In this document: piece after piece, positions 19,580 through 58,267 of the stretch
How the letters are laid out: every line of letters begins with the position of its first letter
Numbering within the stretch: the stretch's first letter is position 1
Source of the DNA: Phycomyces nitens
Taxonomy: Eukaryota; Mucoromycota; Mucoromycetes; Mucorales; Phycomycetaceae
Direction: 5' to 3'
NCBI GenBank assembly: GCA_022702545.1
Contig: JAHRBC010000005.1
Span: forward strand, 3,224,001 to 3,288,000
Length of the DNA: 64,000 nucleotides
The notes under the pieces: generated by a model
Told to the model about the DNA's origin: nothing
What the model saw: the letters and a program-made list of their open reading frames with translations, nothing else
Databases searched by the model: none
Made by a program: the position numbers and the translations under genes

Positions 19580-19978
19580 CACTACGGCGAGAGGAGTGGG
19601 AACAGCTACCAAAACGGTAACATAACTGCCGTTTTTTCTGATTTTAGACTGCTTTTTCTCCGCAGATTGTGGTTGAAAGGTAATGTCATCGATGCCGATT
19701 CATAAAAGTTGCATGGAATCTCTTTTCATCTGGCAATGAGGTAGTTGTAGTACCATAGAAAGGGCTTGTAAATTTTTAGGCAACCTTGTTTATTGAAATG
19801 AGCATTTTATTTGGTGTTGAAGATGTTGCACATTCTTGAAAAAAATAATTTTTGTCCTGTGTGAACGAAACAGTAATATAACTGCCATTTTTTGAAACTG
19901 ATTTTTGGTTTTTGACATTATTAGCCACTTTGTTTTATTCAGTATTAAATATTTGGGTATGAGAAAATAAGAGAATGA
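19580..19978 (-). repeat. A1 3' subterminal region
   Basis: It contains ACGGTAACATAACTGCCG-type motifs near the terminus (19600-19640) and around 19870-19890, matched in A2 and A3. No gene. Confidence 0.6.
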
Positions 19979-22234
19979 TTATAGGATTGATAGGTTACCC
20001 TTGGTGATACGTAAGTTGGTATTAAAAACAAAATATGGCGCAATCACAAAAAATTGATTGCTGTTTGGTGGGTATTGAATGAGACCAACTTGATAGATGA
20101 TGTCATCTACGTTGATGACGGCGAAAGTTGGTGAGGGTATATGTCCATGCAGGGTATCAGTTGGTCTCTTCTTTACAATCGGGACAGAAAAGTCATGTGC
20201 CGCTGTGGTATGCTCTTTCATGACATCAACAAATGCCAAAAAGTGGGTTATGCCATGGGTATCTTTATGCTGAAAATAAAACTCTACAGTGCCAACGAGC
20301 CAGCTTTGGATGGGTATATTGCAATGACTAGATGAAGATTTAAGAATGTGAGCAATCTCTACTTTGTATTTCGACTAATACCAATACTTACTTTTTATAT
20401 GTACAAGTAAACATGATATGATGGTTACCGCGGCTGGTCTCATTTTTCATTTTTCGGTATATGGATGAAGAGTACACTGTAGAGTCTTTCCAAAGGCGGG
20501 AAGCAACAACAATTGATGAGTCAGCAAGCTCAGTGGTATATGTGGTGGTATTTCGGGTATAATATCTCAGCAACGCATTTCTCACAATGTTGCTGCTTAT
20601 GCCTTCAATGGTATCATCAAGCAACTGAGTATTACGATGAAATGGTTCCCATAGCTGGGCACCACTTTCATCATTGGGTATATTTATGAAACTTGATTCG
20701 TTGTAGGTATGAGGATGAATGATGCTGGTATGGTTATGAAGATCGATGGCTGTATGGATATATCTGTGGATTGCAAATCGTTCTACGAGTAAGCTGGCAT
20801 TTCGCCCGCCTTTAGACTTTGACCTAATGAGCTTGGAATAGACGCCAATGACCCTCTCCATTGATCTGGTAGAATAACTCCTTAGAGGGCCCTGGCGTCT
20901 TATGATATAGGGTATATGGATGAGATAATGCTGGACTGGTCGGAAGACACTACGAGATAGTGTCTTTTGATGAACTTGGTATAATAGGAATGCATGCCAG
21001 TCTTTGAAATGTCTATTGAAAAAAAAGGTAATAATAAATGTTAAATAAAAGTAATGATTCACTTTTGTTTGACATACCTTTCCATTTCGTCGATCAGGGT
21101 ATATGTGAGTGACCACTGTAAGGCAAGTGCACACCCTTTTACCAAGGACAAGACGGCATTTTTGGCAGCCCTGCTTGGTAAATAGGGGACGACAACTGTG
21201 GGTATAATGTATAGAAGGAAATCAAGCCAATCTACTGCACGAGTGCCATCGATTTTCTGGAAGATGTTGTCGAAGCTGCCTTGGAATGAAATGGGTATAA
21301 ACTGCCTGAAGTTGGAAATGCAGTTTCCAATGGTCTCCAAGTCAGATCTGGGTATATAAAATGAGTAATTGTCTGCTGACTGGGTATTGTCTTCTTGGGT
21401 ATAGTAAAATTTGGTGTCTTTAGAGTGAGCAACGGATATAAGTTCAAAGAGGTGATGGCCGATTCCTCTTGCAATCAAATGCAGTTTGTCCAATGCAAAA
21501 AATGAAGAGCCAGAGAAGGTCGACAGTTTGGCAAAGAGACTTGGCTGGTATATGTTTTTGATCTATTATACATAAGTATTTAGTATAAAAAGAATGATTA
21601 ATTGAATATTCATATACTTACAGGGTTGCTGGTATAAAAATCTTCAACAGGTCTTAGAGGAGCAGAGCTGTCATCAAAGTATACTCCATGCCTTCTGTTA
21701 TCCGCTGGCTTTCCTTTGGTCTCGCAAATGCGGCAACCAAACAAACTGTTGTGTGACCCAAGATGGGCCATGTCTGCAACTGCAGGGATATCACCAGATG
21801 CCAACTGCAAGTGGACCTTTGATTGGCATATCTCAGCCCCATTGTGCTTTACAATGAGGCCATGAACTTCGAGGTCCTTTAGCTCATTTTTGATGGGTAT
21901 TAAAAATGAATCCAAATTGGATGGTTTTTTAGGACCAGGCAAAATGGCAAGTTGTATGAGGTATGGGGTGGTATATCTAAGCTTTTAATTAGTATTTTGT
22001 TTGTTTAAAATATTAATTATCTTATGGATGAATCGATGTTGAAAATGATTAAATGAATGATGGTATATGAGGCTTTGCCTTTTTTCTGGTTGAAAAAACC
22101 ATCGGTATATATGCCCAAGGCAATATCATTGGGATTGGCAAACATGCCTTGTCTTACGAGCTGCTTATAATTTTTGCCATCAAAAATATCATTGATTTCG
22201 CCAGCATGTGATTCTCTGTTGGCTCTGTATTGTA

Positions 22235-22268
22235 CACTGGAAAAATGGGTCTGAATACTCATGTGTGA
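22235..22268 (+). repeat. B1 left terminal inverted repeat
   Basis: CACTGGAAAAATGGGTCTGA and 14 further bases match the reverse complement of 28701-28734. Confidence 0.95.
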
Positions 22269-22431
22269 GCAAAGCTGTCTACCTGAGGAAAATTAGGGCA
22301 AATCTGCAGCTCAACACCTTTTTTTGTGTTCTGATTAAAAACGTTCTTTTGCTTGACCCCATTGGCTTGATTAAAAAGAATAAAACAACGTTGCTTTTTT
22401 ACCACTATAAAATATTAATAAATAAAGTATA

Positions 22432-22449
22432 TGTAACACTCGTTTCCTT
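22432..22449 (+). promoter_or_regulatory. Conserved upstream motif of B1 transposase
   Basis: TGTAACACTCGTTTCCTT, 30-47 nt upstream of ATG 22479, shared with B0, B2 and B3. Confidence 0.5.
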
Positions 22450-22478
22450 TTTGTTTTAACATTATAAACACAAACACA

Positions 22479-25400
22479 ATGTCATCTTCAAATACTTTTT
22501 ACAACACCAAGTGCTATTGCAATAGATGCAACAACAATGGCCAAGGCTACACATTGGTAGCAAGCCGAACTGCTCAGCGTCATAGCAAGAGAGCAAGAAT
22601 TGAACAGAGCAACTCAAATGAGATTGGTATGATAATTTCAGTGTTTATTTTTATGTATTGTATAATAATTTCGGCGGTATGAAACACAGACACTCAAGCA
22701 GACATGGATATTGATATTCAATGTAAGAAAAGTTTATTTGAAAAAGTAGAGACTAAGAAACTATTATATTCTATAAGCGGTCATTTCTATTCAACAGTCT
22801 GGACCCTCGGATGTATTGGACGGTCAGACCAACTCACCTTTTGGGATGCCGATGTAATGCTGGATGAGGGCGATTCAGTTGCTAATGAGGCCAATGTCGA
22901 TGGCGAACGCGATGACGAAAGCGATGATGAAGAAGATGAAGGCGAAGATGAAGTTGAGATCGAGGTTGAGGAATTCGACAGTGAAGGTGCGTGTTGCATA
23001 GCCAAAAGCAAAGAGAAAGCAGCAAAGAAAAAAGCCTGAAAAGAATTGAATATTAATTTTTTCGATTTTAAAATAGACCCTTTCCCAACCCCCAATATGC
23101 CTGAAAATCCTGTGCACAGGTTTATTGCCGTTTTTGTTGTCCTCTTTGCATCCCGCTATGTGGTCAACAAGGGTGCTGTTGTCTTGATCGAGTTCATCAA
23201 CACACTCTTGACGATTTACGAGCAGGATTTCCAGCTCCCATCCAGTCTTCTTGGTCTGCAAAGAATGACAGGATATTCTGCGATTTCCAACGGTATCAGG
23301 AGATTCGTAGCCTGTCCTGATTGCCACGCAGTTTATGAAGAAAACCAGTCTGTCCCCCCTCACTGTGTTTTCACGAAAGTTGGTGCACGTCTGACCTGCA
23401 ACTGCAAGTTGACCAAGGTTACATCGTCTGGAGCATTGGTTCCCAAGCGCGTGTTCCAATACCAGTCATTGAAGCATGCCTTGAAAATTCTTTTCCTTCG
23501 CCCTGATTTTGAAGCAAGCATTCAACACTGGAATCAGGAGCTCAAGATCATGGATACAATGTGCGACATCTTTGACGGTGTTATGTGGAAGGAGTTGAAA
23601 GACATCAGTGGTGAATCTTTTGTTGCCCATCCTCGTTCTTTGATGTTGACGTTGAACATTGATTGGTTCCAGCCCTTTGACAGGGTCACATACTCTTGTG
23701 GGGCCATTTACTTGGTGGTTAACAACTTGCCTCGTGAGGAGCGGTTTAAGGCAGAGAACACTATCCTTGTTGGACTCATGCCTGGGCCAAAGGAGCCAAA
23801 GTCCGAAGAGATTAACCATTATCTCAAGCCTTTGGTTGATGAGTTGGAACAACTGTACGTGGGAATGACTATCCCAACCTTTGAATGCATTTCTGGAGCA
23901 ACCGTCCGTGCAGCTTTGTTCATGGTAGCATGTGACATCCCTGCAGCCAGAAAGACAAGTGGATTCACGTCCCATAACAGCACAAACGCCTGTTACAAGT
24001 GTTGTCGCAAATTTTCTCGTCTTCCTGGGACAAGCAGTGTGGACTTCCGTGGGTTCAATGAGTCTGGGTGGCGTCGTCGTCGTGGTGTGGAGAACCGTTT
24101 GCATGCTGAGGTGTGGAAGAGTACAAGTACGCCCTCAGAAAGGCATGAGTTGGAGGTCGAAAATGGTGTTCGATGGTCGCAACTCCATCGCCTTGGATAC
24201 TTTGATCTAGTACGTGGAACGATCATTGATCCCATGCATAACCTATTCTTGGGTACAGCCAAGAGGATGGTCGAGACGTGGACTACTAGTGGTCTAATCA
24301 CGGATAGGAAGCTGGCTTCTATGCAAGTAATGGCCGAATCAATGGTGGTGCCAACTGACTACACCATTTTGAAGACGAAGATCAGTAGAGGATTTCCATA
24401 TATGAAGGCTGATGAATGGAAATCCTGGGTGTTGGTGTATTCTCCTGTGCTGCTCAGAGACGTTCTTCCTCTGGATAAGTTCAAGAATTGGATCGACTTT
24501 GTTGATGCTTGCCGTCTCCTTGCAACACCAACAATCACGTTTGATGACCTTGACGACGCCCATGCCCATTTGGAAAGATTCTGTCAGAAATGCGAAGAAT
24601 TGTATCCTGCTCCCACTCTCACCTGCAACATGCACCTGCACATCCATCTTCGCGAAACCATTCGTGATTTTGGACCTGTGTATGGTTATTGGCTGTTTGG
24701 GTTCGAGAGGTACAATGGCCTGTTGAAGAAGATCGACACCAACAGAAGAGATGGATTTGAGTCCACATTCATGAAGACTTTTGTTGAAGACATGTACAAG
24801 GGCGACTACGTACAAAAATGCTCTCCTGTCCGAACCAAGCTTCTTTCCGTCCTCTTCTGTCAAAACTCACATCATCATCCACAACTGCCACCTCCTCCTC
24901 TGCCCCTCTTTCACACACGCCATTTATACTTCAGCTATTTGTGCGTGCATCTTTAAAGCCTGAATTTCCGATAAAGGGAAATGAGCCCCTTCCTCTCTCT
25001 GCCTTCTCTCTCTTGGTGAGAAAGCCATCTGTAATGGATGATACAGATTATCTCCAGTTGTTGGAGTACTATCGGCTATCGTATGGTATACCAAGTCTTC
25101 AGCATTATCATCAGGCAACGTCTTCAGGTATCTTTGTTGATAATCATATCACAAAGATAAAATCTATCAATCTTCTCGGCCAGACGTATAAAGGCAAAAA
25201 TGGTTCCGTAGACCGTGGGTCATTCATTCAAGCACTATTCCTGGGTAGAGTTGGTGATCCTCCACGAGCATACACAGGACAAATTCAGTACTTGTTCCTC
25301 CACAAGCTCAGTTGTTCATCAATCGGAAATAATTCCACTCATGTCTTTGCTTTCGTGAGATGGCTCATCAACATGCCAAGTAGAACACGTGAATACGAAG

Positions 25401-25555
25401 GAGTTGAGGTCTGCTCGCCAAGTTTCTCTCCAGATGATTATCATTGTATATTGCCAGTACATCGTATTCTTTTGGAAGTCGCGACTGCTGAGCTGGTGTC
25501 TGGTGTTAATGTGAAGATGCTGGTCATTCCTTTACCAAAAAAGATGTATGCTTAA
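22479..25555 (+). pseudogene. Family B Tnp2-type CACTA transposase, B1 copy, one frameshift
   Basis: Exons: 22479-22626, 22690-22722, 22798 to about 22987 and about 23077-25555. Exon 1 has the Cys cluster CYCNRC and RTAQRHSKRAR, exon 3 the acidic linker. Exon 4 starts MPENPVHR at 23098 and has NIDWFQPFDR, ACDIPAARK, RGTIIDPMHNLFLGTAKR and FGFERYNG. These are the Tnp2 signatures and probable Asp-Asp-Glu residues. The frame shifts at 24814-24818, an A5 run that needs one more A. After it the C-terminal part (residues like FPIKGNEPLP, AYTGQIQYLF and VIPLPKK) is intact. Without the repair the protein loses its last 200 residues. Confidence 0.88.
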
Positions 25556-25687
25556 AGCATTAATAAATAAATACTTGTTTCTTTTAAAAAGAACAAAACA
25601 AAACATTCATTGCCTTTAAACATGTCTTTGGGATTAAATACGTAAGCAAGAGTAAAATAAAACAATTGTTTTTTATTTATTTTTTAT

Positions 25688-26802
25688 TTAATTTCTTATG
25701 ACCCAAGGAGGCAGACGGGCGGCCAAGTCACCAGGGACTGCTAAGTCTCTGACTCCTTTGAGATCTCTTGACAGCATCTGATGAGCATTCATCCCCAAGT
25801 CAAGAGAAACGAATGAGTCAACGATTTCAATAAACCGGTTGAACTAAATAGCATTTGTTAATATTTCAAAAATGATATCTTAATAAATATATTATTATAT
25901 ATTGTTTACAGAATAATTTACCTCATCGCTTCTCCAGCTTGGGCGATAAACGGAGACCCGACGCTTGCCAAGAGTCTTTGAAGTATCGTTGTCTGATTCT
26001 CCTTCAGACATTGCTTCTTTCTGAAGCAGACCAGAACAAACTTGCCCCATTGCCTGCTCAATGGCCTCCTTATGTTTGAGAAAGGCAGTCATGCGACGTT
26101 CGAAATGCTAACAAATATCCAACATGTATTCATTAATATTTGTCTCTAGTTTGAATAGTATACAACCTACATCTTTTTCACGGTTTGCCCTTCTCGAACG
26201 AGCGTTGGAGACTGCCTTCTTCTCAGAAGACTTTCTCTGCTCCTGACGACGGCTACAGAAGTTTCTGTAGACTTTCTCTCGAATGTCACTTCTTCTCAAG
26301 GGCGAGCCAACAAAATTTGGCCCAAGGTAAGCCAGTAGACGTTCTACCAGCTCCTTGTTGGGACTCTCGTCAAAGTGAGTATGGACATCCCACCTTGGCT
26401 TGTTGTTATTTGCCTGGATGTCAACCAACGCCCTTGACCTCAACTTTGGCTGCCACAAATATTCACGAATATCTTTCTGTTTGATCAAAATAAGAATTTA
26501 GTTGATAGGATATTATATCTGGTGACACCTACAAACACACGTTTCTTTGCATCAGACATCGATTCATTTGTGGCCTCGGCAGTTGGGGCAGCAACAGAGG
26601 CAAGAACAGGTACTGGAGCCACAATACTTGTGGCAGCAATGACAGTGAGGTTGGACTCAATAAGAGTCCCCATTCTTCTGTTCATCGTGGTCATGTCGCC
26701 TCTAATTGAGGCAAGATCCTCTTGGAGATTCGTGATGACCGTCTGCATATTGACATCGTCGTCAGCAGGTCGTGGAGCAATATTCCTTCTTTGGTTTGAC
26801 AT
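25688..26802 (-). CDS. Family B partner gene, B1 copy
   Basis: Four exons: 26802 to about 26532, 26476-26171, 26107-25922 and 25843-25688, all with usable splice sites and no internal stop. It encodes NQRRNIAPRP at the start, a variable Val/Ala/Pro-rich stretch, then the conserved core (LRSRALVDIQANNNKPRW, SPNKELVERLLAYLGP, RRSDIREKVYRNF). An AMSEGESDND acidic patch follows, then YRPSWRSDE and a C-terminus ending LPPWVIRN. It runs tail-to-tail with the transposase, 132 bp apart. It probably binds subterminal repeats or aids the transposase; that is inference from position. Confidence 0.75.
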
Positions 26803-27274
26803 TTTCTATTATAAATTATATCAAAAATACACAATATTTAATACTCGTTTACTACTTTAAGTTTAAACATATCTTTTACTTAAAACGCACAAGAGACAGA
26901 TAGATAGAAAAATTGGATTTGAGTGGGAAGAGTGAACAAGTTGGTCAAAAGGATTTAATAATATAAAATACAGATTATATATTAGTAAAGACAGCTTTAT
27001 TTATAAATCCAAAAAGACTTCTTGTACACATTAATGAACGGCACCATTATTGCTTTTGGACTCTATCCATTACACCTATTCTGTCTCTGTTTCAAATTAT
27101 ATATCCTTGTATTTTTTTTTCTTTTTAGCCTTTTTTCCTTTCTCTTGTTTCCTTATATCCGCGCCTATTTTCTCTTTCTTTTTTTACACCTCTTTAGACT
27201 AAAAATTGGCGGCTTCTTTATAAACACGCACTCATTCCAATACATCCTGCCTGCATTGCTCCTCCAAACTAATC
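26803..27274. promoter_or_regulatory. Shared promoter region between partner gene and third gene in B1
   Basis: Non-coding. A TATA-like CTTTATAAAC at about 27217-27226 lies 50-60 nt before the third-gene ATG, with CTTTATAAAT at the same place in B2. T-rich tracts at 27105-27190 give spurious hydrophobic open frames. Confidence 0.5.
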
Positions 27275-28207
27275 ATGGTCAGTTAAATGTGCCGGTGCCA
27301 TCTTGCAAATTATTCTGATTCTCTCTTTCTATTTTATAGACCTCTTCCACTTTCATAGCCTATTATATGATAACGTCATCAGTCCCAGTGTAAAAAAATA
27401 TTTTCGTGTCAAACTTTTTTTCTCTAATGCTTCTTATTCTCCTATAGGCCGCCGCCATCAATCACCCTATACCCCATCTGCGTCTTCTATCATCTACAAC
27501 TGTCATCATAATGGTAATGCTGTCTTTTAGCTTTTATACTTTTTTATATATTTATTCTGACTATCTCTTTTGATCTTATAGACCTCCTCTACTGGCATGG
27601 TCTATTATATGGTATCGTCATTGGTGCTATGGTAAAAAAATCTTTTTGTGTCAAAAAAATAATAATTTTCTTTTCTAACGTTTCTTATTCTACAATAGGC
27701 CGCCGCCATCACTGTCTACCTCATCTGCCTCCCTCATCATCTACGACTGGTTATCATAATGGTAATGCCATTTCTTGGTCTTTGTGCTTTTCAAAATATT
27801 ATTCTGGCTATTTACTAATAATTTTTTATACTCTTAATAAGAAGCTATTGTTGGCCGCCATATACCATCCCTCTACTATAATCGCCAACTCTGCTTCTGG
27901 TATGTAAATTAATTATTTTATCACTCAATTCACCTGTAATAATTTATTTTACCCCATCTCTAGTCAACCTAATCATACAAGATGCCATGCCGCACAACTC
28001 AGCCCCTCTTTGTCCATTCTTGTCCATCCCTTACAATGTAAGTATAATATACCTCGCATCTTGAATAGCACCCGCACTTTTGAATATATGTCACTAATAT
28101 AACTTTTATTATATCAGAACACTACCGCAACCACCCAAATCGCCGTCGGACCTTATTTTCAGGTATTGTTCAGTAGAGAAGCACCCGATCCAAGTAGTAT
28201 CAAGTAG
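27275..28207 (+). CDS. Third gene of family B: small spliced membrane protein, B1 copy
   Basis: Exons: 27275-27281, 27582-27631, 27699-27761, 27845-27899, 27964-28037 and 28118-28207 (7+50+63+55+74+90 = 339 nt, 112 residues). All introns are GT-AG. Two hydrophobic segments (about residues 8-29, GIVIGAMAAAITVYLICL core; and about 34-54, LVIIMLLLAAIY core) suggest two membrane helices. The tail is polar, with NNTTATTQ and PDPSSIK at the end. B2 has the same six exons with the same lengths. An extra exon pair (27340-27389 and 27448-27513) is a duplicate of exons 2-3. Including both pairs breaks the frame, so it is probably skipped. I recognise no family. Confidence 0.6.
27340..27513 (+). repeat. 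Duplicated exon 2-3 block in third gene of B1
   Basis: This block (50-nt and 66-nt exons with their splice sites) resembles 27582-27761. B2 has only one such block. It looks like a local tandem duplication of about 240 bp. Confidence 0.65.
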
Positions 28208-28734
28208 GCCGGTAGAAGCGGCAAGGATAGACAGTAATAGTATTAGAACTCGTGTATAGAACCATTCTATTCTTTCCAATAAACACAAATATAAACCATA
28301 AACAACCTAATAAGTACGGGATATAAAATAATGGGGGAGCATTCAATGCTTGATTACACAGTAATAGCCTTCAAATATTGGTTAAAAATTAAGAAAGCCT
28401 TCAATCCACCTGAGTATAATCGGATTTTAATCATGTCAAGAGGTTCTTTTGCTTTCAACTTTCCTCTTATATAAAGAGTGTACAACAACGAAACTTGGTT
28501 TCAAATAGACTTTTATTCTGTACATCAGGTCAAATTAATGACCCGCTCATACTAACAACCCCCACTTGGTCAGCCCATGAAGTAAATACTCATGCAGAAA
28601 CCAGGTCATAACTCATTGTGTAAAACTTGGCTTTGGCACATACAGAAACCCATACAGCGTATCTAATAAATCTTAATTTTACCCCTTAGTAACCGCACTT
28701 TTACACATGAGTATTCAGACCCATTTTTCCAGTG
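28208..28734. other. B1 right subterminal region
   Basis: Non-coding. It includes CCAATAAACACAAATA (about 28278), a plausible polyadenylation region for the third gene and shared with B2, then AT-rich sequence to the terminal repeat. Confidence 0.6.
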
Positions 28735-29570
28735 GTAGGAGCTCTCGGGTATCTGGATCGGCCAACATCTTGGATATGATGTCCCCAATGGACAAAAGCT
28801 TCATTTGGGCAACTGGTGCCTTCACCAACTCGGTTTCCATCTTGTAGCGCGCCTCGCCACAATTGGAACATTCATATTCCCCATCAGCCATGCCTTATAG
28901 TCTACAACCTGATGGGCACACATCATAGTCATGGCCCTCCAGATCCGACTTCTTCTTGAGCAGAACATCTACTCCTTCACCATGTCTAATCTTGGCTCCA
29001 GGCTCTAAAAAGAAAATGAATGATATAATTTATGTCAGTAATTGTTAAGTAAAATAACAGTAAGTAATATCATTTACCCAGCATGATCTCATCATGATCC
29101 CGAATGAGTGTGTTAGCAAACCTAACAATGTCTCTGTAGGCTGCCCTAGCTATTTTATGCTGGACCACCAAGTGAGAGAGATGGATACTCAATAGTTCAG
29201 CTTTGGTGAAGGTATTGAGCCCAATTTGCTCACTATTGTATATGTGCGCTCTACCCTCAGTGGCATCAAAAGTACAGCCACATTTGTATGAAAGGCTTTC
29301 ATCGGCTTCCATGATATCTGTAGAAAATGTAGGTATTATTTTGTATAAGTGTTTGTGAATCAGTGAATATGATTTTTTATTATTATTATTACCTGAATCA
29401 CCCATAGATTCATCATTATCCTGCATTTCAATATCTTCAGACAAACATTGGTGAAGTCTACTGTGGTTTTTCAGATGCTGGTAACTATTGAAAGTCAAGA
29501 CACACTGAGCACACTGATATGTCAGCATAGACATTTTGTCTCTCGATTGGTTGGTATTAGATGAAGACAT

Positions 29571-30256
29571 ATTGATAAAAAGTGTAACTGGCTAGGTTGG
29601 GTGAGGATGTGAAATATAGAGTTATAAAAAATCTAATGATGATAGCTTGGTAAAAAGAGTAGCTTTATATATGATTTATTTTATACTGAATGATTGCAAC
29701 AATTTTTCTATTTCTCATAGTGACGATTATGATGATGATGGCAGTATAAATTCTTCTCGGTTAATATATCTATTAGACAAAACACCTCTTGATAATAATG
29801 CCAATGGTAGTTGAGATGTCTCTTGCTCAATGTTGGCGATAACTGTTAAATTACTTATCGGTCAATAATTTTGGTAATAGGTAAGACATGTCTTGGTTAA
29901 TAATGGCAGTAATAGATAAAATACACGTTGGTCAATAATTACAATAAGTATGATATGACTAGGGTCATGTCATTTACTTTAGATTATTAAGAGGCTATAA
30001 TCATTACATATATAGTGTCTCCATGGTACATTAGTTATAAGGCTCGTTTATATTTCGATTCTTAATTTACACACCAATATATTCCTGATAACTGTAAATC
30101 ATTTATTATATCCTAGCTTTGCCTTGCAAATGATTATATCAATATATCATACTTTCTAATAAACCAAGGTGATAATAGATCCAAAGTATATATATTCTTT
30201 AATGCAAAGTACAACCTTCATTATATTTTAAATTATTAATAATTCACTTTATCAAC
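29571..30256. promoter_or_regulatory. Divergent promoter region of A1
   Basis: Lies between the two divergent family A genes. AT-rich, no open frame of note. It contains several copies of a GGTCAATAAT-type motif (29868, 29891, 29930). Confidence 0.45.
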
Positions 30257-36962: not shown

Positions 36963-37929
36963 TATTCTTTAGGCTGCTCTTATTGGTTCTCTCATATTTT
37001 TAGTATATGTTTTAGCGCACTTTTTCTTTTCCTCTTTTCCTTTAGCTGTTTTATCTTTGCTTTGGTCCTCTCCTTTGAAATAAAATCGAATAACTCTCCA
37101 TCACATAAGATTGCCACCTTAATAAATGCCCAATTGGCATCTTGTATACCACATCTTCAGCTCTATTGTTTTTAATCTAGGAATGAAACACACATCTCGC
37201 CCTTTTTCAAGCACCAAAAAAAATGAAATTTTTTATAGCTGTATTACGCTGAGGTTAGTTTATATTTCTTTTCTTTTCTTTGCTCTACTTTTTTGAAGTA
37301 AAACTAAATGACCCTCCCTTATGTAAGGTTGTCAATGACATAAACATCCGATTGGAATCTTGTATACCACATCTTCAGCTCTGCTATCTTTAATCAAGGA
37401 ATGAAACACTCATCTCATAATTTTTCAGACACTAAAAAAAGGTGAAAATTTTTTACAGCTATATTACACTAAAGTTTGTCGTTCCCCACCTCCCCACCTG
37501 GGAATCTCTGTAGAATATGCATATTGTTTTCTTAATGATGTACTCATTATAATATGTTTACACTCTTTAATTAATCATATTGCGCATTCTCTATTCTCCT
37601 TCTACTGCATCTAGTATTTACATCTGTACGTTTCATATAGTGGCATTAATTCAAGAGATGCTTGGTATACCGATTAACAAGCACAATATATACTGGTATG
37701 CTATCCAAAACAATATGCTCGGTTTATTTGATTCACTGGGAAAACGGTCCTGAAGTACAATGATAAGAAGTAACCTTTTAACCTATGCAAAACTGGAGTG
37801 ATTTTGTATCTCAGAAAGTTTTTCATATTCAGGTTAAAGATAAAGCTTTACTCTATCTTATTGGCTTAGACACAATAGACATATGAATATCAATTTGTAA
37901 GATTATAAAGTTGTTGAGAATAAAGTAAA

Positions 37930-37947
37930 TGTAACACTTGTTTCCTT
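37930..37947 (+). promoter_or_regulatory. Conserved upstream motif of B2 transposase
   Basis: TGTAACACTTGTTTCCTT, 29-46 nt before ATG 37976. Confidence 0.5.
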
Positions 37948-37975
37948 ATTATCTTAATATTCAAAAGCATACAAT

Positions 37976-40900
37976 ATGTCTTCTATTACTCAACTTCGCA
38001 ACGAGGCCTGTTATTGCACTAAATGCAATGGTAACGCCCAAGGTTACAGTCTGGTAACAAAGAGAACCTCTCAGCGTCATAATAAGAGAGCAAGAATTGA
38101 CGAACTTGAAAGAATTGTGATGGGTATGATGATTTTGGTATTGTTTTTTGGCCCTTGTATAATAACACGGTTTTTTATTAAACACAGAAAGACAAAGAGA
38201 AATGGTGGAGATTGATATTGAACGTAAGGAATATTTATTTGAAGAGCAGCAGATAGTAACAAGCTATTGTATTCTATATGTAGCTATCACAACCCATCAA
38301 TCCGGTTCTATGGAAAGACAGAATGATTTTTCCCACTCACCCGTCGTGGAATCTGAGCTGATGCTGGATGGCGATGATTCAGCTGCCAATGAAGTGAATG
38401 GCAATGACAGCAACAATGAAGAGGAGAGCAATGCCGAAGACAGTGATGGTGACGACGTCGAGGAGATTGAAGTCGAGGATCTTAGCAGTGAAGGCGAGTG
38501 TTGAATAAAGAAAAAAGAACCTGAAAAAATTGAGTGTTAATAATTATCATTTTAAAATAGACCCCTTTTCCTCCCCGAGATGCCAGAGAATCCAGTGCAC
38601 AGGTCCATTGCCATATTCGTGGTCCTGTTTGCATCCCGATACGTGGTCAACAAGGGTGCTGTTGTCTTGATCGAGTTCATCAACAAGCTCTTGAAGATCT
38701 ACGAGCAGGATTTCCAATTGCCCTCTAGCCTTCCTGGTCTCCAAAAGATGACGGGTTTCTCAGCCTTGACCAAAGGAATAAAGAAATCTGTTGTGTGCCA
38801 GGATTGCCACAAGGTGTACGAGGAAGCTGAGTCTGTTCCTGAGTTCTGTAACTCATCCAAGGTTGGTTCCCGCTCTTCCTGTGGGTGCAAGTTGATGAAG
38901 GCGTCCTCTTCTGGTACTTTGGTTCCAAGACGCCAATTCCACTATCAGTCCGTCAAGCAGGCGTTGAGTGTCCTTTTCCTCCGCCCGGATTTTGAGGCCA
39001 ATATCCGCCATTGGAACAAAGAGCTTAAGGTCATGGACACCATGTGCGATGTGTACGATGGTGCCATGTGGAAGGACCTGAAGGATAAGGATGGTGTCTC
39101 CTTTGTTGCTGACCCACGTTCATTGATGCTGACATTGAACATCGATTGGTTTCAGCCATTCGATGGGGTGACTTATTCCTGTGGAGCAATCTACTTGGCA
39201 ATAAACAATCTTCCTAGGGCTGAGCGGTTCAAGCCCAAGAATATCATCCTTGTTGGCCTGATGCCTGGGCCAAAGGAGCCAAAATCAGACGAGATAAACA
39301 GCTACCTGGAGCCGCTGGTCAATGACCTGAACCAGCTGTACGTTGGTGTTTCCATTCCAACGTTTGAGTGCCCTTCTTCTGTGGTTGTCCGTGCTGCCTT
39401 GATGATGGTTGCCTGCGACATCCCTGCTGCCAGGAAGACTAGTGGCTTCACAGCCCATAACAGCACTCGGGCATGCTATAAGTGCAGTCGCAGTTTCTCC
39501 CGTCTGGAAGGCACGAGCCATGTGGACTTTCGTGGGTTCGAGTTTGTCAAGTGGAGGCTTGCCAATGGTGAAGAAAACCGGGTGCATGCTGAGGAGTGGA
39601 AGAGTGCAAGTACGCCCTCAGAAAGGCACCAGCTGGAGGTCGAAAATGGTGTTCGATGGTCGCAGCTGCACCGCCTTGGATACTTTGATCTAGTACGTGG
39701 AACGATCATTGATCCCATGCACAACCTATTCCTGGGTACGGCCAAGAGGATGGTCGAGACATGGACCGCCAGTGGTCTTATCACAGACCGGGATCTTTGT
39801 CAGATGCAAAAGGTGGCAGAGACAATGGTGTTGCCTGTGGGATATACCATGTTGAAGACGAAGATCGGAAAGGGGTTTCCCCGAATGAAAGCCGACGAGT
39901 GGAAGTCCTGGGTGTTGATTTACTCTCCTGTTCTGCTGCGGCCTGTTCTTTCTGGAACAAAGTTCAAGAATTGGATCAGCTTTGTTGATGCCTGCCGTCT
40001 CCTCACCAAGCCTACCATCACTTTTGACGAACTTGATGAGGCCCATAGTCACCTGGAGAAGTTCGGTCGGGAGTGTGAACAACAATACCCTAGTACCATC
40101 CTCACCTGCAACATGCACCTACACCTCCATCTTCGCGACACTGTTCGTGATTTTGGACCAGTGTATGGTTATTGGCTCTTTGGGTTCGAGCGATATAATG
40201 GGTTGTTGAAGAATGTTGATACAAACAGGAGAGATGGGTTTGAATCAACATACATAAAAAGTTTTACTGAAAATATGTATAAGGGTGATCTTGTGCAAAG
40301 ACTTACATGTCAGAGCCAAGTCCCCTTCAAAGTACTATTGAAAAAACTCACCTCCTTGTCCAATACTTTTATAGTAGCCCCAGCCCCAGCACCAGCACCT
40401 CAACGCCGTTTCCGTCTTGATGCATTCCTGCAAGCCTCGTTGGATGTCAGTCTTACGATTAAGGGTAACAAAGCTCTCCCTCCGTCAGCATTACCTTTAC
40501 CAACAGCAACAGCAACAACACAGATGGGTGATATCGACTATCCCCATCTCCTAGAATATTACAAGAGAGCATATGACAATGAGCACCTTGTTGACTACCT
40601 CCATGCATCTTCATCACCATTCTTTGTCAATGACCGAATCACAAAGATCAAGGCCATTGATCTTCTTGGTCAGACATACAAGAGCAAAGGTGGATCTGGC
40701 AGTCGCGGGTCATATATCCAAGCTCTTTTCTGGATTTCGAGGGTAGAAAGACAAACGCGTACACAGGAGAAATCCAATACCTGTTCGCCCACAACTTCGT
40801 TCCTCCTCCCAGCCCCTCCAACAGCCGCCCTCATTTCCACCACAAGCAACATGTGTTTGCATTCGTCCACTGGCTTGTTCCAGATCCTGACAATCTCAGA

Positions 40901-41065
40901 CCAGTTGAGCAAGTTGACGTCTGCCTCCCTGGTTTTGCGCCAAACACGTTCGACAGCATCTTGCCAGTGCACAGGATTCTCTTGGAAGTGGCTACGGCCG
41001 AATTAAAAATTGAAAACAACGCAAGGATGCTGGTCATTCCACTGCCAAAAAAAATATATGCATAA
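37976..41065 (+). pseudogene. Family B Tnp2-type CACTA transposase, B2 copy, two frameshifts
   Basis: Exons: 37976-38123, 38188-38223, 38284-38495 and about 38561-41065. Exon 1 has CYCTKC and RTSQRHNKRAR; exon 3 is acidic. Exon 4 has MPENPVHR, NIDWFQPFDG, ACDIPAARK, RGTIIDPMHN and FGFERYNG. The exon 3 donor is GC rather than GT (GGCGAG at 38496). The frame breaks at 38573-38576 (a C4 run, one base short, before MPENPVHR) and near 40726-40730 (TTTT, one base short). Beyond it the C-terminal block to IPLPKKIYA is open. Confidence 0.88.
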
Positions 41066-41202
41066 ATACAAATAAAACTTTTCTCTCTCTCTCTCTCCCT
41101 TTTAAAGAAGCAAAAAACAAAACAAAGCCAAGTAAAATATACATATAGTCCAAATAGCGCATATGTGAAACAGGGTGAAAATTAAGAGAAAAAGAAAACG
41201 TT

Positions 41203-42389
41203 TTATTGTCTCAGTGACCATTGAGGAAGGGAGGAAGAAAGCCCCTCAGGGACTGCTAAATCCGCAACGCGGCCAAATACTCTTGGGAGCATTTGGCGCA
41301 CGTTGACACCCAAGCCAAGGAGCGAGTACGAGTCCAACAACTCAATCAACTGATTGAACTAATATACATTCATTAGAATATTATTTTATGATTCAAAAGC
41401 AATAAAAAAATTTATTTAAATAATATGTTACCTCATCGCTCCTCCAGCCTGGGCGTACTGTGCGGATCATCCGCCGGCCAGGAACTCCAGGAAACTCATC
41501 CTCAGACTCACCCTCAGACATTGCTGCCTTTTGGATGAGTGCTGAGCAATCATTGCCTATCGCATTGTCAATGGCATCCTTGTTGGAGAGGTATGCCATT
41601 CGACGGCGATGGAAATGCTAATCAAACATATGTTTAATATTGTTTTTCAATCTCAAGTCTTTTAGATGCTATACTATTACATACATCAGCTTCCCGGCCG
41701 GCTTTTCTGGCACGAGCATTTGCGGCTACCCGTGCCTCAGGAGACGCCCTCTCCTGGCGACGCCTTCCGCAAAAGTTCCGGTAGACACTGTCCCGAAGAT
41801 CCCTTTGGCGCAAGCCAGTGTTGATGAACGTTGGGCCCAGGTAGGCAAGGAGTTCAAGAACCAACTCTTTGTTGGGAGATTCATTGAAATGAACCTCCGT
41901 TCTCCACCTGGGCCTGTTGTTGTTGGCTTGCACCATAGCCGGGTTGTTTGACCTGAAATTGGGCCTCCACAGATAGTCTCGTATATGTCGCTATTAAATT
42001 TTTATAAGCCAATGAATTGGTAAGCTATTGAGAATATTAATACTTACAAACGCTTCTGTGGCGGCACCAGGGTTATACTCCACCACAGCCGGGATGATGG
42101 GAGCTGGGCCAGTGGCAGGGATGGCAACAGGACCAGGAGCAGGGCCAACAATGGTGAATAGCTCCTCACCAAAGGCAGAAGCAAGCTCGGCGGCAGGAAC
42201 TGCACTGTTGTTGGCAGCCACCAACTCAGCCAAACTGTCAATAGCCTCGACAGTACTGGCGTTGCCTTCGATGCTGGTGCCAATGCGAGAATCTACCCTG
42301 ACAAGGATGTTTTGAATATCCCGCAAGGTCTCCAACAATTGGAGTTGCTCATCAGTTGAGCGAGAAGTGGGAGTGGATCTTGGTGCCAT
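41203..42389 (-). CDS. Family B partner gene, B2 copy
   Basis: Exons: 42389-42048, 41991-41695, 41617-41432 and 41358-41203, open with GT-AG introns. The Ala/Pro/Gly-rich variable region ends TEAF. Then comes the core (YLWRPNFRSN, QANNNRPRW, SPNKELVLELLAYLGP, RQRDLRDSVYRNF), the AMSEGESEDE acid patch, RPGWRSDE and a C-terminus ending PQWSLRQ. Convergent with the transposase, 137 bp apart. Confidence 0.75.
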
Positions 42390-42785
42390 GGTCTATAGAA
42401 TATCATATGTTTTCAAAATTAGCTTTATATTCTCTTTATAAATTATAGACTCTACTCTTTACATACAAAATACTTGGTTTGCGAGTGCAGGAGGGTCGAT
42501 TCAATTGTAAATAGATGGTCTTTATATACACAGATGAGTTTAATAAACAGATTCCTAATTACCCTTTGTATACTCTGTATAAATTAATAAAAAAATAATT
42601 TTGGATCTCTGCTTGAAATTAAATATCATTTCTTTCTTTCTTTTTGTTCTATCTTCTTATCTCTGTTGTTTTATCTCTACGTGGGTTTCTAATAAGACAT
42701 TCTTTATACTAACAAATTAATGGCTTCTTTATAAATGTATACTCATCCCAATACATTCTCTCTACATTGCCCATCTAGACTAATC
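42390..42785. promoter_or_regulatory. B2 promoter region between partner and third genes
   Basis: No open frame. TATA-like CTTTATAAAT at about 42727-42736, 50-60 nt before the third-gene ATG. Confidence 0.45.
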
Positions 42786-43468
42786 ATGGTCAGTTACATG
42801 TGCCGGTGCCATCTTGCAAGTTATTCTGATTGTCTCTTTCTATCCTGTAGACCTCTTCCACTTGTACAGCCTATTATATGGTGCCATCATCAGTGCCAGG
42901 GTAAATAAAATCTTTTCGTGTCCAATTTCTTTTTTTCTCAACGTTTGTTATTCTACAATAGGCCGCCGCCATCACTGTCTACCCCATCTGCCTCCTTCAT
43001 CATCTACAACTGGTTATCATAATGGTAATGCCGTTTCTTGGTCTTTGTGCTTTTCCCTAATATTATTCTGGCTATTTACTAATACTTTTCTATATTCTTA
43101 AAAAGTTATTGTTGGCCGCCATATACCATTCCTCTACTATAATCGCCAACTCTGTTTTTGGTATGTAAATCGATTTTTCTATCACTCAATTCACCCATAT
43201 TAATTTATTTTATCCCATCTCTAGTCAATCTAATCATACAAGATGCCATGCTGCACAACTCTGCCCCTCTTTGCCCATTCTTATCCAATCCTTGCAATGT
43301 AAGTATAATATCCCTTGCATCTTGAATAGCACCCGCACTTTTGAATATATGTCACTAATATAACTTTTATTATATCAGAATACTACTGCAACCACCCAAA
43401 TTGCTGCCGGACCCTATTTTCAGGTATTGTTCAGTAGAGAAGTATCCGATCCAAGTAATATCAAATAG
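42786..43468 (+). CDS. Third gene of family B: small spliced membrane protein, B2 copy
   Basis: Exons: 42786-42792, 42851-42900, 42962-43024, 43106-43160, 43225-43298 and 43379-43468, again 339 nt and 112 residues. Every exon has the same length as in B1 and all splice sites are GT-AG. Two hydrophobic segments (LYSLLYGAIISARAAAITVY and LVIIMLLLAAIY) precede a polar tail ending EVSDPSNIK. Silent and amino-acid changes against B1 are roughly equal in number by eye, so selection is not proven. However, the open six-exon frame in two copies is hard to get by chance. Function unknown. Confidence 0.62.
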
Positions 43469-43992
43469 GCTGGTAGAAGCGGCAAGGATAGACAGTAATA
43501 GTATTAGAGCTTGTGTATAGAACCATTCTATTCTTTCCAATAAACACAAATATAAACCATAAACCTTTTAAGTACGGGGTATAAAATGATGGAAAGAGTA
43601 ATTATTGCTTGATTATACAATAATGAGTTTCAAAGAGTGGTCAATACTGGCAGTTTGAATGGGTAAACAATAATAAACCCTCACTATTAGCGTATGAAAA
43701 ACAACAATAAGATCGCCCTTTCAAGATGTAAACACAATACCTGTACACCAAAAACATAATGTCGGATGTAACAATTGAGTATATCAAGTCAGTTAAGCAT
43801 GTCAAAAATGCTAACAAACCTTTGTTCCGTTCGCTGTCACAACTTTTACCATGTTTATTTCGAGTCTTACAACCTGATAGGAACCTAGGTTCTCCTATCT
43901 GTCATATCTGTGTTTTACCATAGAAAATTCGCGACTTTTCACATATTTATTTACAGTTTTACACATGATCTACTTTTACCGTTTTCCCAGTG
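43469..43992. other. B2 right subterminal region
   Basis: Non-coding, with the CCAATAAACACAAATA stretch shared with B1, ending in the terminal repeat. Confidence 0.6.
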
Positions 43993-44400
43993 ATTGCTTC
44001 ATTCTCTGACCACAATATCTTTATAGCAATTGATGAAGACCAAAGGCCTTCCAAGTCATGACAGTGATTCACAACAAGATGCTCGGCACGCTGATTAACA
44101 AGCACAATATATACTGGTATGCTACCCAAAACAATATATTCGGTTTATTTGATTGCTTCATTCTCTGACCACAATATTTTTATAGCAATCGATGAAGACC
44201 AAAGGTGCTATCCAAGTCATGACAGTGATCCATAACAAGATGCTTGGCACGCTGATTGACAAGCACAACGTATACTGGTATGCTATCCAAAATAATAAGC
44301 TTGGTTTATTTGATTGCTTCATTCTCTGACCACAATATTTTTATAGCAATTGGTGAAGACCAAAGGCCATCCAAGTCATAACAACATGTTGTTGGCATCG
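43993..44400. repeat. A2 5' subterminal tandem repeat, about 160-bp units
   Basis: Units start ATTGCTTCATTCTCTGACC at 43993, 44152 and 44313 (periods about 159 and 161 bp); an earlier unit ends at 37733. Inverted copies lie in A3 at about 45360-45660. Possible binding array for element proteins. Confidence 0.85.
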
Positions 44401-47475: not shown

Positions 47476-48135
47476 ATTTTGACAATGAATTTGTAAGAGG
47501 ATAATAAATATTGTACCTTATGTCATGCTCGCACATTTATATATCTACTTAAATTTATTATTATTTCGGTGTCTTGGAAAATATGATATAATATTATGAC
47601 TTACAAGACATGGCTAGGATTACCAAGGCACCTGTCATGACAGTGATAGATTGTCTTATCCAAATTAAGGCTGTCAATAAAAATGACGTTTGTGCCTAAT
47701 TTGGTAAATGATCAGATTCTAATGACGTTTAAACTTCATATAAGGAATGTCTACGATATCTTACCATTAAAAATCTGGAGTGCCATTGTCCTAGCCGTGC
47801 CACACTAGCCACACTCATTGATGACAGGTACGTTGATTTTGTAGTCATTGACCAAGAAATGTCTTTGCTGCTATTGCTATTACTAGTCAAATAATCTCTT
47901 ACCTAGTATCGTCATTATTAAACAATAATTGTTTTAACCATTGAATGAGAAATATTTTTATTGTAATCGTCATTATTATCATTACCAGGAGAATTGAAAA
48001 AACAAGACAACTGTTTAGTGTAAAGTTCTATGAGTATAAAGGTGTTCTTCATACCTGATTATTGGAATCCAATTCTTCTCGTATTTTTATACTTCAAACC
48101 ATTACCCAACCCACCAATTTACTCTTATTATCAAC
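47476..48135. promoter_or_regulatory. Divergent promoter region of A3
   Basis: AT-rich, no gene. A fragment (about 47800-47910) is retained inverted in A2 at 36440-36560. Confidence 0.45.
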
Positions 48136-51100
48136 ATGTCTTCTTCCAACTCCACCCAGCAGAGAGACAGATTGCCCACACAAGCATATGTGTGTACTCA
48201 GTGTGGTTTTGACGCTGTCAATTACCAGCAACTCCAAAACCACAAGAGGCTCCACAGAAGTATTGTGGTGTCAAATAGCACCGTTCAACACATTTCTGAA
48301 GATGTTGAAATGGAAGATGTTGTTGAACATGATATCAACGACATTGAATACATGAGCAATTCAGGTAATAATAAAAATACAATTATGTCCATTGTTAGCC
48401 AAGTTTTTACTCAATAATATACATACCTTTTCTATAGACATTATGGAAGCTGATGAAAACCTTTTGTACAAATGTGGCTGTACTTTCGATACCACTGAGG
48501 GTAGAGCACATGTCTACAACAATGGCCAAATTGGGCCAAACACATTTACCAAAGCCGAGCTATTAAGCATCCATCTCTCTCACTTGGTCGTTCAGCATAA
48601 GATAACCAGGGCAGCCTACAGAGATATTGTTAGGTTCGCAAACACACTTATTTGGGATCACAATGAGATTATATTGGGTAAATGATATTACTTACTGTTA
48701 TTTTACTTAACAATCACTGACATGAATTGTATTATTCATTTTCTTTTTAGAACCTGGAGCCAAGATTAGACATGGCGATGTTGTTGATGACATGCTCCAG
48801 TCAAGGTCTGACATCCGGGGCCATGACTATGATGTGTGCCCAAATGGTTGTAAGCTGTACAACTTGGGCAATGAGCAAGTTGAATGTGCAGCCTGTGGTG
48901 AACAACGGTACAAGCTGAATGACAGTATTGTCAAAGTCCCCATTGCAACAATGAAGATCCTCTCCATTGGGGATGTTCTGGCAAAAATGCTTGCCAATTC
49001 TGAGACCAGAGAGCTCCTCCACCATAGAGCCAACAGAGAATCACGTGCCGGCAAGATAAGTGATATCTTTGATGGTGAGAACTATCAGCAGCTAATGAGA
49101 CAAGGCATGTTTTCCAGTCCCGACGACATTGCCTTGGGCCTTTACACCGATGGTTTTGTCAACCAGAAAAAAGGCAAAGCCTCATATACCATCATTCATT
49201 TAATCATTTTCAACATCGATCCATCCATAAGGTAATTAATATTTTAAACAAACAAAATACTAATTAAAAGCTTAGATATACCACCCCATACCTCATACAA
49301 CTCGCCATTTTGCCTGGTCCTAAAAAACCATCCGATTTGGATTCATTTTTAATACCCATCATAAATGAGCTAAAGGACCTCAAAGTTCATGGCCTCATTG
49401 TAAAGCACAATGGGGCTGAAATATGCCAATCGAAAGTTCACTTGCTGCTCGCGTCTGGAGACATTCCTGCAGTTGCAGACATGGCCCATCTTGGGTCACA
49501 TAGCAGTCTGTTTGGTTGCCATATTTGCAAGACCAAGGGAAAACCAGCAGATAACAGAAGGCATGGAGTATACTTTGACGACAGCTCTGCTCCTCTAAGA
49601 CCTGTTGAAGATTTTTATACCAGCAACCCTGTAAGTCTATGAATATTCAATTAATCATTCTTTTTATACTAAATAATTATTTATAATAGATCAAAAATAT
49701 ATACCAGCCAAGTCTCTTTACCGAGCTCGCAACATTTTCAGGTTCATCATTTTTTGCATTAGATGAACTGCATTTAATTGCAAGAGGAATCGGCAAACAC
49801 CTCTTTGAACTTATATCCATCGCTCAATCTAAAGACAAAATTTTTTACTATACCCAAGAAGACAATACCCAGTCAGCAGACAATTACCCTTTTTATATAC
49901 CCAGATCTGACTTGGAGACCATTGGCAACTGCATTTCCAACTCTAGGCAGTTTATACCCATTTCATTCCAAGGCAGCTTCGACAATATATTCCAGAAAAT
50001 CGATGGCACTTGTGCAGTAGATTGGCTCGATTTCCTCCTTTACATTATACCCACAGTTGTCGTCCCCTATTTACCAAGCAGGGCTGCAAAAATTGCCGTC
50101 TTGTCCTTGGTAAAAGGGTGTGCACTTGCATTACAATGGTCCCTCACATATACCCTGATCGACGAAATGGAGAGGTATGTCAAACAAAAGTGAATCATTA
50201 CTTTTATTTAACATTTATTATTACCTTTTTTTCAATAGGCATTTCAAAGACTGGCATGCATTCCTATTATACCAAGTTCATCAAAAGACACTATCTCATA
50301 GTGTCTTCTGACCAGTCCAGCATTATCTCATCCATATACCCCATATAATAAGATGCCAGGGCCCTCTAAGAAGTTATTCTACCAGATCAATGGAGAGAAT
50401 TATTGGCGTCTATTCCAAGCTCATTAGGTCAAAGTCCAAAGGCGGGCAAAATGCCAGCTTACTCGTAGAATGATTTGCGATCCACAGATATATACATACA
50501 GCCATCGATCTTCATAACCATACCAGCATCATTCATCCTCATACCTACAACGAATCAAGTTTCATAAATATATCCAACGATGAAAGTGGTGCTCAGCTAT
50601 GGGAACCATTTCATCGTAATACCCAGTTGCTTGATGATACTATTGAAGACATAAACAGCAACATTGTGAGAAATGCGTTGCTCAGATATTATACCCGAAA
50701 TACCACCACATATACCACTGAGATCGCTGACTCATCAATTGTTGTTGCTTCCCGCCTTTGGAAAGACTCTACAGTGTACTCTTCATCGATATATCGAAAA
50801 ATGAAAAACGAGACCAGCCACGGTAACCATCATATCATGTTTACTTGTACATATAAAAAGTAAGTATTGGTATTAGTCAAAATACAAAGTAAAGATTGCT
50901 CACATTCTTAAATCTTCATCTAGTCATTGCAATATACCCATCCAAAGCTGGCTCGTTGGCACTGTAGAGTTTTATTTTCAACATAAAGATACCCATGGCA
51001 TAACACATTTTTTGGCATTTGTTGATGTCATGAAGGAGCATACCACAGCGGCACATGACTTTTCCGTCCCAATTGTGAAGAAGAGACGAACTGATACCCT

Positions 51101-51272
51101 GAATGGACATATACCCCCACCAACTTTTGCCGTCATCAACGTAGATGATATCATCCATCAAGTTGGTCTCATTCAATACCCACCAAACAGCAATCAATTT
51201 TTTGTGATTGCGCCATATTTTGTTTTTAATACCAACTTACGTATCACCAAGGGTAACCTATCAATCCTATAA
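48136..51272 (+). pseudogene. Family A CACTA transposase, A3 copy, two stops
   Basis: Seven exons: 48136-48364, 48438-48677, 48751-49231, 49276-49630, 49690-50174, 50239-50859 and 50924-51272, with clean GT-AG introns. Exon 1 has a C2H2 finger (YVCTQCGF then LQNHKRLH). Exon 3 has CPNGC and CAACG pairs. Exon 4 has LPGPKKPSDLD (the Tnp2 signature), DIPAVADMAHLGSHSSLFGC and HICK, and later exons have a conserved end (VGLIQYPP). Stops TGA at 50309-50311 and 50471-50473 both replace CGA (present in A1). Without them the protein would be about 900 residues. N-terminal zinc finger plus Tnp2 core is unlike the family B protein. Confidence 0.88.
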
Positions 51273-51419
51273 TCATTCTCTTATTTTGTCACCCAAATAT
51301 TTAATACCAAATAAAACAAAGTGGCTAATAATGTCAAAAACAAAAAATTGGTTTCAAAAAATAGTAGTTATGTTACCGTTTCATTTACACAGGACAAAAA
51401 TTATTTTTCTCAAAAATGC

Positions 51420-51985
51420 GCAACATCTTTAACACCAAATAAAATCCTCATTTCAATAAACAATGTTGCCTAAAAACTTACGAGCCCTTTCTATGGTACT
51501 ACAACTACCTCATTGTCAGATGAAAAGACATTCCATGCAACTTTTATGAATCAGGATCAATGACATTACCTTTCAACCACAATCTGCAGAGATAAAATGC
51601 TCTAATAAATATTAATATCATATAAAATAAAATAAAATGGCTAATAATATCAAAAACAAAAAATTGTTTCAAAAAAACGGTAGTTATGCTACCGTTTTGT
51701 TCACACAGGCGAAAAATTATTTTTCTCAAAAATGCGCAACATCTTTAACACCAAATAAAATCCTCATTTCAATAAACAACGTTGTCTAAAAACTTACGAG
51801 CCCTTTCTATGGTACTACAACTACCTCATTGCCTGATGAAAAGACATTCCATGCAACTTTTATGATTCGGGATCGATGACATTACCTTTCAACCACAATC
51901 TGCGGAGATAAAGTGCTCTAAAATCATAAAAAACAGTAGTTATGCTACCGTTTTTGGCACAGCTACCGGTCTTTCCGCCGTAGTG
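51420..51985. repeat. A3 3' subterminal duplicated region
   Basis: Two units of about 310 bp, inverse of A2 34896-35527, ending in the CACTACGG terminus. Confidence 0.75.
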
Positions 51986-57609: not shown

Positions 57610-58267
57610 TGTCTAAAGAATATTAAAATAGTCAGTGTCAATTATATTATACTGTGTCTGGATTTAATATAAATGATATTCTTTACTTGTAACTAAAAAG
57701 ATAATAAGATGATGAGAACACAAAAGAGTGAGAAAGAACAAGTCAATTATATGAAAAGCATATTATATATTAATAGCCATATACATGGCTGTATCCAAAA
57801 AGACTTCTTGTAGACTATCAGAGTTGATATCGGCAATCAAAATTGTCCTTTATTAATTAACTAGTGAGTTGGTCTCTTTGGATAAAGAAAAAGACTTTGT
57901 AAAATTGGTTTTTATATATATATACTTTGGGTTTATTCTATAACACAATTAATATTACTATTCATTTAGCTTTAAATCTATTTGTCTATATATTTTATTC
58001 TGTTTAAATTATACAGGCTCTTTAACAATAAACATTATCCATCTATCCCGAAAACCTTATTCTTTGAACCAAACGATTCTTGATAGTGTTGATTACACAG
58101 CTTTTTTTTTCACATTGATTCTGCGCCTTTATTGTAAGCCCAAGAAAATAATAAACAGCAGACTGAAACCTAGCAAAGCATATTAATCGCTCAAGATATA
58201 TTTTGGATTCCATCCATTACACCTATTCTGTCTCTATTTCAAATTCGATGTGGGCCCTTGTAATTAA
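57610..58267. other. B3 region between partner gene and B4, with inserted repeat
   Basis: 57818 to about 58200 is extra compared with B1 (26990-27060) and starts TATCAGAGTTGATATCGG, like 19455. The B1-like sequence resumes with CCATTACACCTATTCTGT at about 58213. Confidence 0.5.

Follow-up and report, generated by a model that had tools for sequence, protein, structure and literature searches.

A third, spliced-looking unit at a fixed place in several families of CACTA elements

Background

CACTA elements are usually said to carry two genes; those of the En-Spm kind have tnpA and tnpD. The window analysed here, a stretch of 64,000 nucleotides from Phycomyces nitens, holds two elements, B1 and B2, in which a chain of short exons appears to lie beyond the second gene. 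The initial annotation read this chain as a gene for a small membrane protein. It is worth asking whether a protein is what these elements keep, or whether it is the transcript. Among the open-licence papers listed for CACTA elements in Mucor or in fungi, no title or abstract describes such a third unit.

The elements that carry the unit

CACTA/EnSpm elements are recognised by inverted ends that start with CACT and by a 3-bp target duplication. B1 and B2 have both, and their ends and duplications match. The six-exon unit lies inside these CACTA transposons. The main features are these (TIR, terminal inverted repeat).

22235-28734, plus strand: CACTA element B1, 6500 bp, ends CACTGGAAAAATGGG, 32-bp perfect TIR, target duplication GTA on both sides
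23046-25555, plus strand: transposase region of B1, two overlapping open reading frames (23046-24956 and 24818-25555)
25690-26802, minus strand: TnpA-like gene of B1, read from the sequence, with the start codon at 26802 and a left limit placed approximately, by eye
37734-43992, plus strand: CACTA element B2, 6259 bp, 15-bp perfect TIR, target duplication ATT
38580-41006, plus strand: transposase of B2, 808 aa, Transposase_21 (E 4.8e-20)
61217-63700, minus strand: transposase of D1, Transposase_21 (E 6.1e-18)

The Pfam family Transposase_21 is found in B2, in D1 and also in C (E 5.6e-20). The best protein match to the B2 transposase is in Mucor saturninus, with 99% identity at 89% query coverage. 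B1 is assigned to the tnp2-type transposases by its nucleotide identity of 72.9% to the B2 transposase region. Its two open reading frames overlap, so it is perhaps not one intact frame, and a Pfam search of the second (24818-25555) returned no family. We call the second gene TnpA-like by its position. Exons 1 and 2 of the TnpA-like gene of D1 translate open. In B1 the third unit and the TnpA-like gene stand head to head on opposite strands. B1 itself sits in another repeat (19653-22234 and 28735-29618), a copy of which at 48088-51596 is without the insertion; part of this repeat has a weak Pfam match to DUF4218.

Structure of the third unit

The six exons proposed at first, of 7, 50, 63, 55, 74 and 90 nt, are identical in length in B1 and B2. 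Their introns were said to be GT-AG with no stop in the chain, and all ten splice sites are GT/AG in each copy, giving 112 codons plus a stop. The TATA-like box placed 50-60 nt upstream is CTTTATAAA, which in both copies begins 59 nt upstream of the ATG. All features below are on the plus strand.

27216-27224, plus: TATA-like box CTTTATAAA, 59 nt upstream of the ATG
27275-27281, plus: B1 exon 1, 7 nt, ATGGTCA
27340-27389, plus: B1 extra exon 2a, 50 nt, AG before and GT after
27448-27513, plus: B1 extra exon 3a, 66 nt, AG before and GT after
27582-27631, plus: B1 exon 2b, 50 nt
27699-27761, plus: B1 exon 3b, 63 nt
27845-27899, plus: B1 exon 4, 55 nt
27964-28037, plus: B1 exon 5, 74 nt
28118-28207, plus: B1 exon 6, 90 nt, TAG at the end
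28278-28283, plus: AATAAA poly(A)-like signal, within the best conserved block of the unit
42786-42792, plus: B2 exon 1, 7 nt
42851-42900, plus: B2 exon 2, 50 nt
42962-43024, plus: B2 exon 3, 63 nt
43106-43160, plus: B2 exon 4, 55 nt
43225-43298, plus: B2 exon 5, 74 nt
43379-43468, plus: B2 exon 6, 90 nt

The initial annotation did not include the second pair of exons 2 and 3 that intron 1 of B1 (27282-27581) contains, with its splice sites intact. Either pair alone keeps the frame and the two together shift it, so we reject the idea that cassette 2a-3a is part of one long B1 product. Two such pairs were also seen by eye in the C-type copy L076.

The 112-codon frame stays open in 1.5% (B2) and 1.8% (B1) of 5000 dinucleotide shuffles, and any of the three frames does so in 4.5% (B2) and 5.8% (B1). 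The other two frames of the real chain have 3 stops each. The choice of the six exons was made by eye and already took the frame into account. Given these chances and this way of picking the exons, the open frame is suggestive and not overwhelming.

Distribution over families and copies

A related unit adjoins the TnpA-like gene in five of the six families examined: B1, B2, C-type, D1 and the A/D2 type. The third, spliced-looking unit first noticed in B1 and B2 thus stands at a fixed place inside CACTA elements of several families. The C-type unit is known from L076 (with L077) and from an interrupted copy made up of L010 and L072, which was read by eye. The C element of the window breaks off at D (58268), and the C-type unit of L010 belongs to a C-type element further on. 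The flanks of the D element differ, being TAA in the window (58265-58267) and TGA at L010:544-546. By eye, the element sequence also differs on the two sides of D, as after recombination between copies.

The sixth family, E (L010:544-6617), has unrelated sequence where the third unit sits in the others. E has CACTG-like ends and at least 20 matching places. It has a few splice-like donors and, by eye, no clear frame. Between its second gene and its right part there is a Tc1/mariner-like transposase region (L010:3717-5310, by eye). Elsewhere, L009:266-2405 resembles a MULE-type transposase with a SWIM-like end and at least 1 apparent stop, again by eye.

The searched genome comprises 49 Mb in 11 contigs. 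It has at least 40 full-length matches to B1-type units, at least 31 to B2-type units (one interrupted), at least 40 to D-type units and at least 35 to C-type units, for which the query was the first half of the unit. For 23 of 27 B2-type transposase matches (those of at least 92% identity, out of 60 listed), one of the listed B2-type third units lies within 15 kb on the same strand. Near D2-type transposase matches, a D third unit from among the best 40 listed was found in 6 cases of 29, a figure of little weight given where that listing ends.

For variation within families we read 8 copies of B1, 30 of B2, 34 of D and 1-2 of C. The B1 copies are the nearest 8 of at least 41 matches, so variation in B1 is understated. 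The D copies are 30 of the 40 listed matches plus L073, L074, L075 and L009. C stands in the computed comparisons as one copy (L076 with L077).

Reading frames in the two clades

If the unit encodes a conserved protein, its distant relatives should be read in the same frame. This is not what is found between B and D. The D exons measure 73, 40, 59, 60, 74 and 111 nt. In an alignment from which the first cassette of B1 and of C had been removed beforehand, the D frame equals the B frame from late exon 4 through exon 6 and differs from it in exons 2, 3 and early 4. The unit of D1 itself has a stop at codon 88, in exon 5.

58752-59484, minus strand: third unit of D1, exons 59484-59412, 59368-59329, 59272-59214, 59130-59071, 59006-58933 and 58860-58752 (last end approximate)

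We consider the strongest rival to be a real accessory protein gene, fast-evolving and dispensable, whose frame is gained and lost, whose starts move, and whose product is hydrophobic in B and C and polar in D. Several observations favour it. The frame is open in 8 of 8 B1 copies and 29 of 30 B2 copies, and the C copy L076 has 97 codons from an upstream ATG with a donor. Six of the 34 D copies are open over 138 codons. The frame of one of these intact copies, L056, would be open by chance in 0.8% of cases, and any of its three frames in 3%. The open frames are thus not to be dismissed. The joint of exons 1 and 2 is in phase 1 throughout B, C and D, where exon 1 is 7, 28 and 73 nt long in turn. 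Finally, the exons of B1, B2 and C have no gap columns, against 12, 13 and 19 in the introns (extra cassettes left out; exon 4 of C may be 3 nt longer). The frame shift over exons 2 to early 4 counts against such a gene.

Coding constraint

The initial annotation held that a lack of spliced reads, together with dN/dS near 1 and stops in most copies, would refute its reading. As to stops, the families divide. They are rare in B2, where 29 of 30 copies are intact and the copies are young, and common in the D clade, where 28 of 34 have a premature stop (codon 88 in 25 copies, codon 26 in 3). As to dN/dS, the comparable transition-corrected ratios are 0.68, 0.75 and 0.98 when B1, B2 and C are compared in pairs (p 0.15, 0.21 and 0.53), none of them different from neutral.

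The third unit is without detectable codon constraint, unlike the transposase of the same elements. In the transposase the third position takes a share of 0.50-0.56 of the substitutions in five pairs (p <= 1.1e-23). In the third unit, pairing B1, B2 and C with one another gives shares of 0.33-0.38, and setting exons 5-6 of each of them against D2 gives 0.34-0.39. None of these values differs from one third. Within families, 19 of 47 exon variants are synonymous among the B2 copies (15.5 expected), and 15 of 56 among the D copies (17.3 expected).

The same kind of count was made on exons 1-2 of the TnpA-like gene in 25 D copies, after leaving out 7 of 32 loci whose TnpA part was not aligned over 600 bases. 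Variants shared by at least 2 copies point to constraint there, being synonymous in 22 of 46 cases against 14.1 expected (ratio 0.48, p 0.011); with all variants taken together it is 28 of 79, which is not significant (p 0.17). At equal depth the third unit of D copies gives no such sign, with 9 of 36 shared variants synonymous (p 0.83). Exons and introns of the third unit are also about equally conserved. With gaps left out, none of the eight pairs shows a difference above 2.4 points between exon and intron identity (exon/intron 88.5/90.4% for B1-B2, 87.3/85.0% for B2-C, 59.9/61.1% for B2-D2 and 95.2/97.6% for D1-D2, the four other pairs differing by at most 2.3 points). A protein gene would have to be reconciled with the fact that neither codon-position nor synonymous constraint appears at any tested depth.

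The membrane protein and its possible relatives

The two hydrophobic stretches reported for the product hold for B1, B2 and C and fail for the D-type products. The maximum hydropathy over 19 residues is 2.25 in B1, 2.47 in B2 and 2.06 in C; the intact D copy L056 reaches 0.85. The hydrophobic segment of the B2 product is stronger than in 1968 of 2000 shuffles, which again favours a protein. The relatives of a small membrane protein would be expected to keep its hydrophobic segments, and by these hydropathy averages they do not. A membrane protein as the thing that is kept is therefore not borne out, since there is no detectable codon constraint and in D the frame is shifted and the segment missing. 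We regard a dedicated membrane protein as doubtful, because the processing signals look better kept than any protein the unit could encode. The case is also a warning that, in pyrimidine-rich transposon DNA, a short open frame over several exons can look like a membrane protein.

The proposed search of fungal proteomes did turn up relatives, though in Mucor saturninus alone, with a method that needs shared 5-residue words. Gene model P0001 matches the whole B2 query at 42%. Gene model P0002, whose number adjoins that of a transposase model, gives a partial match, with 95% identity to the D1 product as far as the D1 stop. P0002 continues beyond the position of that stop, which implies that an open D form exists in M. 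saturninus too. Their maximum hydropathies are 1.72 (P0001) and 0.85 (P0002). These matches can be claimed for a protein gene. Against this, both models are products of annotation and, read by eye, P0001 appears to take in three cassette pairs, each in a different frame. We take the fast-evolving protein gene seriously as a possibility, without expecting it to be the right answer.

One can also imagine that the elements captured a host gene, or part of one, which is now decaying inside them. The intron-rich layout is unlike that of the transposase reading frame, and other DNA transposons of fungi are known to carry accessory genes as cargo (PMC12730594). Searches with the third-unit product speak against such an origin: no Pfam family was found at the cut-off, solved structures gave no convincing relative (best E 0.93), and protein matches came from M. 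saturninus only, in the search that requires shared words. The genome searches gave the best 40 or so scored candidates, and a host copy could lie beyond these. A captured host gene seems unlikely to us.

Splice sites and the transcript

If a protein is not what is kept, the signals for processing a transcript may be. Over all ten splice sites, 34 of 45 splice-core bases match between B and D, against 54-57% elsewhere (p 0.004-0.01), and 8 to 18 of 676-691 circular shifts reach 34 of 45. A stronger claim for splice-site constraint was considered and dropped. The seven alignable sites taken alone gave 31-32 of 33 (p 2.5e-07 to 7.7e-06), and the full set of ten gives only the modest value. The best conserved 20-mers between B and D are in the poly(A) region (0.95) and in a stretch of intron 3 (0.90), followed at 0.80 each by a stretch of exon 6 and the exon-5 and exon-3 donors.

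Within families, 2 of 300 splice sites are lost among the B2 copies and 1 of 340 among the D copies. The B2 figure is, by our estimate, about what drift gives at the variant density of the unit. Constraint on splicing is therefore visible only in the long term, and modestly so.

One could suppose that there is no gene here at all, and that C-rich stretches and splice-like signals resemble exons by chance. The shuffle chances of 1.5-5.8% and the choice of exons by eye leave some room for this. It is hard to square with splice sites that are intact in B1, B2, C and D, with the splice-core agreement at p 0.004-0.01, and with a public M. saturninus model that has the same D-type exon chain. We consider it very improbable. 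A structured RNA was also considered and is rejected: the unspliced RNA of the B2 unit has no unusual fold (z +1.19; 19 of 20 shuffles gave a fold no less stable), and a search of 42600-44000 found no Rfam family at gathering score.

Probable exchange of the unit between families

The third unit seems to move between families together with its promoter region, since a block that contains both is far more identical between elements than the transposase is.

58600-59961, minus strand: exchanged block with the third unit, the shared promoter region and the first 46 bases of the TnpA-like gene

Between D1 and L073 this block of about 1.37 kb, which reaches past the poly(A) site on one side and into the start of the TnpA-like gene on the other, is 95.3% identical. 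The transposase region is 71.6% identical and a TnpA-like stretch 67.5%. B1 and B2 are 87% identical over a stretch that opens shortly ahead of exon 2b and runs past the 3' end, against 73% in their transposase regions. Recombination would be the simplest route for such an exchange. The edges of the block are sharp, and mosaic CACTA elements are seen in the window (58600-59961), in L073 and in L009.

What the unit may do

The layout of the unit, its pattern of conservation, the identity of the block between families and the lack of detectable codon constraint are all read from the DNA. We infer from them an accessory transcription unit that would matter through being made and spliced more than through its peptide, with a role at the level of RNA or of the promoter. 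We hold this reading to be evenly balanced between right and wrong. Transcription, splicing in vivo and any role of the unit are its conditional parts. The unit would start from a promoter region common to the TnpA-like gene, with which it is head to head. Splicing would remove the short introns of its transcript, and polyadenylation would take place ahead of the right terminal repeat. As the most likely role, firing and good splicing of the unit would keep the shared promoter open for TnpA and end transcription before the element terminus, and they might also keep the RNA from being treated as a target of silencing. What is retained in the long term would be the layout of the transcript, meaning the splice sites, the poly(A) region and the place, and not one protein. 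Any peptide made from it would be specific to a family and dispensable.

A more specific version goes further, and we offer it only tentatively, as one that is probably wrong in some part. Here the unit would be an exchangeable, intron-dense noncoding unit, swapped together with the shared promoter and present as a regular third component in most of these CACTA families. It would keep the element expressed, for example because its well-spliced RNA is not taken for a silencing target.

Comparison with known systems

The elements described here are like CACTA / En-Spm elements in their terminal repeats that start with CACT, their 3-bp target duplication, their Transposase_21 transposase and their second gene. 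They differ in a further, spliced-looking unit that separates the second gene from the right end and diverges from that gene.

TET/JBP dioxygenases are carried as cargo by DNA transposons of fungi, those of the EnSpm type among them, and have passed between transposon lineages (PMC12730594). The third unit resembles this cargo as an accessory unit that seems to have passed between lineages of transposons. It differs in having no known domain and no detectable codon constraint, and in an exchange seen among related CACTA families only.

A second parallel is SCANR of Cryptococcus, a form of RNAi linked to introns, where the efficiency of splicing decides whether transposon RNA is silenced (PMC5851062). 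This may suggest a reason to retain good splice sites in the third unit. SCANR, as presented there, belongs to another phylum and the parallel is by analogy (PMC5851062). By that analogy good splicing may shield transposon RNA from silencing here too. With its place kept in several families, its exchange as a block and its better kept processing signals, and without detectable codon constraint, the third unit lends itself to asking whether splicing as such helps transposons to remain active in fungi with RNA silencing.
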